Below the pieces are notes generated by a model, which searched no databases, was not told the origin of the DNA, and saw only the letters and a program-made list of their open reading frames with translations. A stretch of DNA of 64,000 nt from a virus. Location: IMG/VR virus record IMGVR_UViG_3300007754_000008, positions 1 through 64,000 of that record; one strand, written 5' to 3'. Below are positions 1 through 18,646 of this stretch, in pieces (the stretch's first letter is position 1; each line of letters begins with the position of its first letter). The position numbers and the translations under genes were made by a program.

Positions 1-3
1 TTC

Positions 4-69
4 CTGATCCCAGATCCAACACACATCACTCGAGATTATTCCTGACTAGCATATTGGATCAGGGATCAG
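4..69. repeat. Hairpin 1 of a covarying family
   Basis: The left arm 4-19 (CTGATCCCAGATCCAA) pairs with the right arm 54-69 (TTGGATCAGGGATCAG). Fifteen of sixteen positions pair, with one A opposite A at the ninth position. The loop is 34 bases. Confidence 0.85.
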
Positions 70-156
70 TACCTGTGGATACCAGCCTCTCGATTGAATA
101 CGATCTAGCCACGCCGGTGGGTTTATTCAGGTTTCACCCACTATTATTTTTCCTTA

Positions 157-224
157 CTGATCCCAGGTCCAGCAGTTGCCCCGCGGGAGCTTATCCGGCA
201 CGTAGCTACTGGACCAGGGATCAG
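157..224. repeat. Hairpin 2 of a covarying family
   Basis: The left arm 157-172 (CTGATCCCAGGTCCAG) pairs with 209-224 (CTGGACCAGGGATCAG). The outer half equals hairpin 1. The inner half differs but the changes are compensated, and the same A-A mismatch is kept. A156 and T225 add one more pair. The loop holds a palindromic CCCGCGGG. Confidence 0.85.
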
Positions 225-326
225 TTGTTGTCCTGTGCAGGCGGACTACTCATTCTAGCTTTGTAGCCATTGTGTCCATCAATCGCGACCTGTACTATAG
301 CGGTTAAAATCCCGCAGTTACAACAT

Positions 327-377
327 CTGATCCCAGGCCCTACAACCAAGGTTTTTGCGAATAGGGCCAGGGATCAG
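327..377. repeat. Hairpin 3 of a covarying family
   Basis: The left arm 327-342 (CTGATCCCAGGCCCTA) pairs with 362-377 (TAGGGCCAGGGATCAG), again with the single A-A mismatch. The loop is 19 bases. A further perfect 12-bp inverted repeat (378-389 with 419-430) starts at the next base. Confidence 0.85.
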
Positions 378-430
378 TTCTGGTTGTTATATGGAATATT
401 CAATTATATGGGTTGAATTAACAACCAGAA
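378..430. repeat. 12-bp inverted repeat
   Basis: TTCTGGTTGTTA (378-389) is exactly complementary to TAACAACCAGAA (419-430), with a 29-base AT-rich loop. It abuts hairpin 3, so the two could stack in a folded transcript. Confidence 0.7.
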
Positions 431-490
431 GTTGTCCCACTGTTTCCAAATTTATCGACCGGGCTACAGTAAAACGAGGTCATATCCAGA

Positions 491-17734: not shown

Positions 17735-18646
17735 ATGGCAATATCAAGAGCACAGCTAGTTAAAGAACTAGAACCAGGCCTAAATGCACTATTTGGGCTG
17801 GAGTACAAACGGTATGACAATGAGTCTGCCGAAATATACGTTACTGAATCTAGTGACAGGGCTTTCGAAGAGGAAGTTATGTTATCAGGATTCGCTAACG
17901 CTGATGTAAAAGCAGAAGGTCAAGGCGTATCTTACGATACAGCACAAGAGACTTACACTGCTCGTTACACTATGGAAACGATCGCTTTAGCTTTCTCAAT
18001 TACTGAAGAAGCAATTGAAGATAACTTGTATGATAGACTTGCGTCTAGATATACAAAAGCTTTAGCAAGATCTATGTCAAACGCTAAACAAGTGAAAGCG
18101 GCTGTCCCATTAAATAATGGTCTACCTTCAGTAGGCACATATAAAACTGGTGACACTGTTTCTTTGTTCTCAACAAACCACACTACAATAGCTGGGGCTT
18201 GTTCGAACACACTTACTACTCAAGCGGACTTAAACGAAACTTCATTAGAACAAGCACTGATCGATATCGCTGCAATGACTGATGAAAGAGGTTTAAAAAT
18301 CGCTGCGAGAGGCGTGAAGATGATAGTTCCGTCTGCTAATCAGTTTAACGCTGAGAGATTATTAAAATCTCAAGGTAGAACTGCTACAGCAGATAATGAC
18401 ATCAATGCAGTCAACTCTATGGGAATGATTCCTCAAGGATACAGAGTGAACCATTTCTTAAATGATTCTGACTCATGGTACGTCATTACGGACGTTCCAA
18501 ATGGTATGAAACACTTTGAAAGAACTCCATTGACAACTTCAATGGAAGGTGATTTCGATACTGGTAACGTTAGATACAAAGCTAGGGAAAGATACGTCTT
18601 CGGCGCATCTGACTATAGAGGTATCTTCGGCGTTGAAGGTGCGTAA
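17735..18646 (+). CDS. Major capsid protein
   Basis: This 303-residue protein should form the head shell with the HK97 fold. The N-terminal arm (1-30) is followed by an E-loop-like region, a helical stretch (SITEEAIEDNLYDRLASRYTK read in parts, about residues 88-110) and an A-domain with MIVPSANQFNAERLL (near 190-205). The middle resembles Mu gpT-type major head subunits. ATAGGAGC is the SD. Codons are unusually clean. A GC-rich hairpin follows. Position after scaffold is classical. Confidence 0.85.
   Translation: MAISRAQLVKELEPGLNALFGLEYKRYDNESAEIYVTESSDRAFEEEVMLSGFANADVKAEGQGVSYDTAQETYTARYTMETIALAFSITEEAIEDNLYDRLASRYTKALARSMSNAKQVKAAVPLNNGLPSVGTYKTGDTVSLFSTNHTTIAGACSNTLTTQADLNETSLEQALIDIAAMTDERGLKIAARGVKMIVPSANQFNAERLLKSQGRTATADNDINAVNSMGMIPQGYRVNHFLNDSDSWYVITDVPNGMKHFERTPLTTSMEGDFDTGNVRYKARERYVFGASDYRGIFGVEGA

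Follow-up and report, generated by a model that had tools for sequence, protein, structure and literature searches.

A modular hairpin RNA of HTVC023P-type pelagiphages that probably assembles through self-complementary loops

Introduction

In retroviruses, the dimerization initiation site joins RNA copies by loop-loop pairing through a 6-nucleotide (nt) palindrome. The packaging RNA (pRNA) of phage phi29 likewise joins RNA copies by loop-loop pairing. Among large natural RNAs, OLE has a palindromic loop, L9.3, which pairs with its counterpart on another chain and covaries among GGCC, GAUC, and AGCU; GOLLD, a large structured phage RNA, forms a 14-mer with symmetric kissing loops of changing palindromes; and ROOL, a large RNA of phages and prophages, assembles into an 8-mer via intermolecular kissing loops (PMC12286853). 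Here, we describe a repeated hairpin (hairpin A) at the start of a viral contig, IMG/VR record IMGVR_UViG_3300007754_000008, of which positions 1 to 64,000 were analyzed (hereafter, the window). We argue that these hairpins belong, as modules, to a structured noncoding RNA that the phage encodes and that probably forms homo-oligomers.

Searches with Rfam covariance models gave no match for GOLLD in the window or in 35 related loci, and none for ROOL or OLE in the window or related loci. A tRNA search of the window also found none, and the tRNA-island association of GOLLD is thus absent here. The modules of GOLLD differ from those of the present RNA, which has repeated hairpins and a far greater variety of palindromes. 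No repeated U.U hairpins have been described in ROOL, while OLE is a protein-binding bacterial dimer without a match in sequence or structure. The retroviral site and pRNA use a single contact or non-palindromic loops, and their sequence and context are unrelated. Two hallmarks of large ornate homo-oligomeric RNAs are present here at the level of sequence: covarying helices in a large structured noncoding RNA, and palindromic loops whose adjacent nucleotides covary.

The only catalogued piece of the RNA is a 121-nt Rfam family, Flavobacterium-1 RNA (RF02976); hairpin A and its companion, module B, are not in Rfam. We found no description of the hairpin sequence, the Flavobacterium-1 RNA, or a pelagiphage noncoding RNA in the literature, although a subscription paper or preprint may contain one. 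The RNA is thus largely undescribed, and it is unannotated even in a cultured phage.

Results

Both a repeat finder and direct reading locate hairpin A three times in the window (4-69, 157-224, and 327-377), and there are no other copies in the complete 64,920-base record. On the + strand, the stem reads 5' CTGATCCCAG[A/G]... and carries a single A-A mismatch at position 9 in all three copies. Stem positions 11 (A/G/G), 12 (T/T/C), 15 (A/A/T), and 16 (A/G/A) vary between copies, and the partner arm follows each time. This confirms the three compensatory hairpins reported by an earlier sequence-only reading of the contig. Relative to dinucleotide shuffles, the hairpin region folds with z = -6.8 on the + strand and -8.9 on the - strand, and a search pattern that constrained the outer arms alone matched at least 120 viral stretches. 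Together, these fold scores and the recurrence of the arm pattern exclude chance.

We find that wobble pairs are distributed one-sidedly. Among 176 distinct hairpins read on the + strand, stem positions 11-18 hold 126 C.A/A.C oppositions versus 9 G.T/T.G, even though the search counted G.T on + as paired and was therefore biased toward it. Since C.A on the + strand is G.U on the - strand, this shows that the active molecule is single-stranded and of minus sense, with U.U as its mismatch. The + orientation taken by the sequence-only reading is rejected by this asymmetry. We consider it well supported that the hairpins belong to an RNA transcribed from the minus strand. In the RNA sense, its elements in the window are as follows:

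327-377, - strand: hairpin A copy 1, CUGAUCCCUGGCCC.../...GGGCCUGGGAUCAG, with the U.U mismatch
216-332, - strand: module B, CUAUA...NAGGUCGYGA - P3 - P4 - CGCCUN core, with closing stem UGUUGU/ACAACA
157-224, - strand: hairpin A copy 2, with a CCGCGG palindrome in the loop
70-156, - strand: structured spacer separating copies 2 and 3 of hairpin A, with a hairpin GUGGGU...ACCCAC
4-69, - strand: hairpin A copy 3, with CTCGAG in the loop; the homologous loops of loci L071, L231, and L099 have ACCGGT

An unbiased sample was assembled from 80 loci retrieved by alignment of the protein of the neighboring gene c2, ignoring hairpins; 71 had enough upstream sequence. The core hairpin is present in 51 of these 71 loci, versus 0 in shuffles of the same stretches and 4 in reversed sequences. 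Two outer stems occur in this sample, CUGAU-CCC/GGG-AUCAG (n = 45) and, at nearly equal frequency, CUUGAG-CCC/GGG-GUCAAG (n = 33; CUUGAGCCC/GGGGUCAAG). The identical outer half noted earlier thus holds for the window copies and is not universal. Among the sample's 84 hairpins, the position of the central mismatch holds U.U in 62, A-U in 17, and U-A in 3. The mismatch is predominant, not fixed, with A-U or U-A replacing it in about a quarter. The earlier description of a fixed mismatch therefore stands for the three window copies only, and its interpretation as a recognized bulge gains from the predominance of the mismatch and loses from its mostly Watson-Crick replacements.

In an alignment of 55 copies of hairpin A, pairing holds in 96.5% of cells. 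The covariation score (0.352) is about three times that of shuffled alignments (0.123 +/- 0.009) and four times that of slid ones (<=0.088). A relaxed second hairpin, UUGCUGG[U/A]CC / GG[A/U]CCUGCUAA, occurs in L128 (5395-5453, - strand), L045, and L127; it retains a CUGRYC/GRYCUG core with U.U and lacks CCC, and its loop in phage HTVC027P contains GCGCGC.

The stretches between hairpins are conserved too. A covariance model places module B beside the hairpins on the RNA strand, HTVC027P included, and matches the window with 100 bits (E = 7e-23), overlapping the flanking hairpins by a few bases. In the 31 aligned copies, that of the window among them, the CUAUA...AGGUCG.GA...CCU core is invariant, and three helices covary. 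In these copies, 95.0% of cells pair, with a covariation score of 0.602 versus 0.203 +/- 0.018 when shuffled and <=0.188 when slid. Covariation in hairpin A and module B, together with the wobble asymmetry, strongly supports two earlier suggestions, that pairing is under selection and that the hairpins may form a structured RNA.

The loops of hairpin A are highly variable in sequence, and many are self-complementary. When only the RNA strand is counted, a palindrome of at least 6 nt occurs in 104 of the 170 non-redundant loops (63.2 +/- 5.9 expected), and one of at least 8 nt in 51 (19.0 +/- 4.0 expected). In total, 52 different palindromic hexamers are used, and a role as restriction-site decoys is rejected on the basis of this diversity. 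The P4 loop of module B also has a palindrome at one register in 27 of 31 copies (9.6 +/- 2.2 expected), again with many different sequences.

We show that these palindromes are exchanged for one another. When hexamers were compared between homologous loops with agreeing flanks, a palindrome was replaced by a different palindrome in 46 cases. In the window, for example, the loop reads AGGAATAAT-CTCGAG-TGATGTG, and ACCGGT replaces CTCGAG in L071, L231, and L099. Hexamers differing at two places are palindromic again in 22 of 42 comparisons, against a calculated 6.7% for random changes; the corresponding values are 17 of 88 (2.2%) for four places and 7 of 42 (3.7%) for six. Distinct hexamer pairs with a changed central dinucleotide number 24, versus 0 for mirror symmetry, 2 for a parallel complement, and 1 for an arbitrary inverted code. 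This pattern indicates that the self-complementary loops are under compensatory selection. Because neighboring bases cannot pair within one chain, the exchange suggests that copies of the RNA contact one another through symmetric kissing loops. The same adjacent-nucleotide argument has been used for the symmetric intermolecular kissing loops of OLE and GOLLD (PMC12286853).

In some relatives, the hairpins alternate not only with module B but also with RF02976. This family lies downstream on the same stretch and strand in HTVC027P (90.2 bits), L045 (105.8 bits, the highest score), L127, L095, and L080, and these five sequences align across ~470 nt in the order A-B-A'-F, where F is RF02976. It has no match above the gathering score in the window, where an Rfam search (gathering score, and also E up to 1) found nothing relevant. 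The earlier statement that no phage element of this layout is known thus holds for the window and needs qualifying for its relatives.

Flavobacterium-1 RNA also occurs alone at other intergenic sites (L115 5995-6116, L040 2151-2276, and L028 4372-4487), distant from the hairpins and in the opposite orientation. One of these copies lies directly before TerL, and two more strong hairpins stand ahead of it (L028 4260-4350), which suggests a second structured RNA locus. When 11.3 million contigs of bacteria and archaea were scanned with a stricter hairpin pattern, it matched a single place, on a 6.5-kb marine single-cell scaffold filed as Flavobacterium sp. SCGC AAA160-P02, where the genes follow the phage order. 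The Flavobacterium single-cell scaffold KB911123.1 (L127) carries the hairpin, module B, and RF02976 in pelagiphage gene order and is thus most likely phage DNA in that sample. The name of the Rfam family therefore probably rests on phage DNA.

A blastn search with window positions 1-480 found no match among phages because the loops diverge too fast, making gene- and pattern-based searches necessary. All-against-all comparison of neighboring open reading frames (ORFs) reveals one conserved genomic place, with the order TerS (-), a + gene, GP88 (-, PF17338), the non-coding stretch, c2 (+), small genes, and TerL (+). The large terminase shares 71.5% identity with the protein of Pelagibacter phage HTVC027P, and the only relatives of c2 among named phages are in two pelagiphages. 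By gene comparison, the source phages are HTVC023P-type pelagiphages; the earlier attribution to a marine phage was right. The complete genome of HTVC027P, a cultured lytic phage, has a hairpin at ~18050-18100, in a stretch under which its GenBank annotation has no feature, and phage 023Pt_psg01 has the hairpin as well. In HTVC023P, DSL-LC04, and HTVC033P, no hairpin was found in the stretches read and no module B in the whole records. Since the array also lies inside many contigs and the HTVC027P genome, an assembly artifact at the contig end, which the sequence-only reading had considered, is excluded.

The RNA feature extends beyond the hairpins in both directions, in the window from ~490 to 1 in the RNA sense, where the contig start cuts it. 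Upstream features are as follows:

378-440, - strand: 5' module C, immediately ahead of the first hairpin, GGGACAACUUCUGGUUGU...ACAACCAGAA; many relatives share this element
441-490, - strand: probable 5' part of the RNA, past an inserted ORF, with an ACUGU...ACAGU helix; boundary uncertain
491-808, - strand: ORF of 105 amino acids (aa) between promoter and RNA in the window phage, without a family match
833-861, - strand: promoter, positioned by homology; TTGACA, 17 nt, TATGTA, with a weak -10 box here and TATATW in relatives
897-1895, + strand: divergent gene c2, 332 aa, no assigned function; locus marker in relatives

Most of the relatives that were read have no ORF at the place of 491-808. 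A sigma-70-type promoter in the RNA sense is present at 49 of 51 loci (~12.6 in shuffles), typically 30-55 nt from the c2 start and of the form TTGACA, 17 nt, TATATW. In many cases the -35 region takes the form TTGACA...TGTCAA, and it may therefore also drive c2 in the divergent direction. A separate promoter precedes GP88 at 47 of 72 loci (~5 in shuffles), and the RNA thus looks like a separate transcription unit; gp34 also has its own promoter between the RNA and the gene. The hairpins were rejected as intrinsic terminators, since no T tract stands behind them.

In HTVC027P, gp33 (GP88) and gp34 make up a temporal cluster of their own and peak in the early-middle phase, being highly expressed at 6-9 h post-infection (PMC12753301). 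Both lie directly downstream of the RNA and have similar promoters, which weakly suggests, by analogy, that early-middle expression of the RNA is plausible. Dense short repeats of the AGCTTG/CAAGCT type (e.g., AAGCTTCAAGCTTGACA) occur in the record of the window (63970-64150 and 64850-64920; L133) and in L128 (4890-5250). They lie in and around the GP88 gene and, in HTVC027P, directly before the -35 boxes of gp33 and gp34.

Discussion

We consider it likely that the hairpins are modules of an independently transcribed, phage-encoded structured noncoding RNA that forms homo-oligomers. The RNA would be read from the minus strand between c2 and GP88 of HTVC023P-type pelagiphages as a discrete, abundant transcript. 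Its length would be ~0.4 kb in HTVC027P; in other phages, the non-coding stretches that contain it reach 1-2 kb. Several of its hairpins would end in loops with a self-complementary sequence of 6-8 nt. Identical loops of separate RNA copies could then pair as symmetric kissing loops, and several such contacts may produce dimers or higher homo-oligomers, as in OLE, GOLLD, and ROOL. To judge from the loop sequences, the RNA probably assembles into a multi-copy particle, for which a scaffold, a cage, or the sequestration of host factors are candidate end uses. The loop sequences appear to be private to each lineage. We tentatively propose, as a bolder possibility, that the modules are interchangeable domains with private, fast-changing palindromic loops, by which each lineage builds its own homotypic particle, unmixed with those of co-infecting relatives.

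Several observations weigh against homo-oligomerization of an independent transcript. A perfect 6-nt palindrome is missing from about 40% of hairpin A loops and also from the P4 loop of module B in the window, which has only CTAG. Some long palindromes could also refold as small hairpins, and many of the comparisons between homologous loops and contigs are not independent. The number and identity of modules differ widely between phages. Furthermore, the -10 box is weak in the window, no 3' end or terminator of the RNA was defined, and the published HTVC027P RNA-sequencing study reports on genes only (PMC12753301).

The promoter just upstream would also suit a cis-acting leader or antitermination element (like the HK022 put RNA) of the GP88/TerS-strand operon, acting on the polymerase or on downstream translation rather than as a free RNA. 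The element lies directly behind this promoter and upstream of same-strand genes, and in some contigs (L014) the last hairpin abuts GP88. However, the promoters of GP88 (at most loci) and gp34 intervene between RNA and gene, the element ranges in size and module number from one hairpin to many, and a leader gives palindrome exchange no role. We therefore regard this explanation as unlikely.

We also doubt that the element is a free RNA with loops that target RNAs of the host or of rival phages, or that bind a protein, with palindromes as a by-product. The combination of a constant stem, a conserved U.U site, and variable loops does resemble a display scaffold, and RF02976 stands alone at other loci. 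Yet the loops preserve self-complementarity and no particular sequence, with up to 6 of 6 bases changed.

A DNA element, such as a pac site, replication origin, or recombination site working as cruciforms or single-stranded hairpins, is very improbable. The repeats do lie close to TerS and TerL, and they share one orientation with a spacing of mostly 20-120 nt, an arrangement common in phage DNA. The promoter serving the minus strand and the wide variety of interposed RNA-like modules argue otherwise, as does the one-sided wobble pattern, although single-stranded DNA of one strand would also fit the latter. The protein-binding DNA site once suggested for the hairpins is disfavored by the same wobble pattern and promoter. 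An integron attC-like array, which would likewise have repeats in one orientation, was rejected: there are no coding cassettes between the hairpins, the locus is a single fixed one, and the interposed sequence is structured.

Oligomer-forming loops beside terminase genes might also recall a packaging RNA that forms an oligomeric ring on the portal, as phi29 pRNA does, but this is scarcely credible, since the partner of pRNA is a packaging ATPase that functions without TerS, whereas the phages described here have ordinary genes for both the small and the large terminase, and close relatives such as HTVC023P have neither the hairpin nor module B.

A homo-oligomerizing phage RNA would add a modular family to the few natural homo-oligomeric RNAs (OLE, GOLLD, and ROOL). 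The great natural variety of its loop palindromes makes homotypic RNA recognition directly testable. The array also places the orphan Rfam family Flavobacterium-1 in a context and probably corrects its source. The bacterial hosts of these viruses are SAR11, the ocean's most abundant bacteria, and HTVC023P-type pelagiphages have been described as widespread, highly abundant, and among nature's most abundant phages (PMC9599517). If they do produce a self-assembling RNA, it would rank with the most common RNA assemblies of the ocean.
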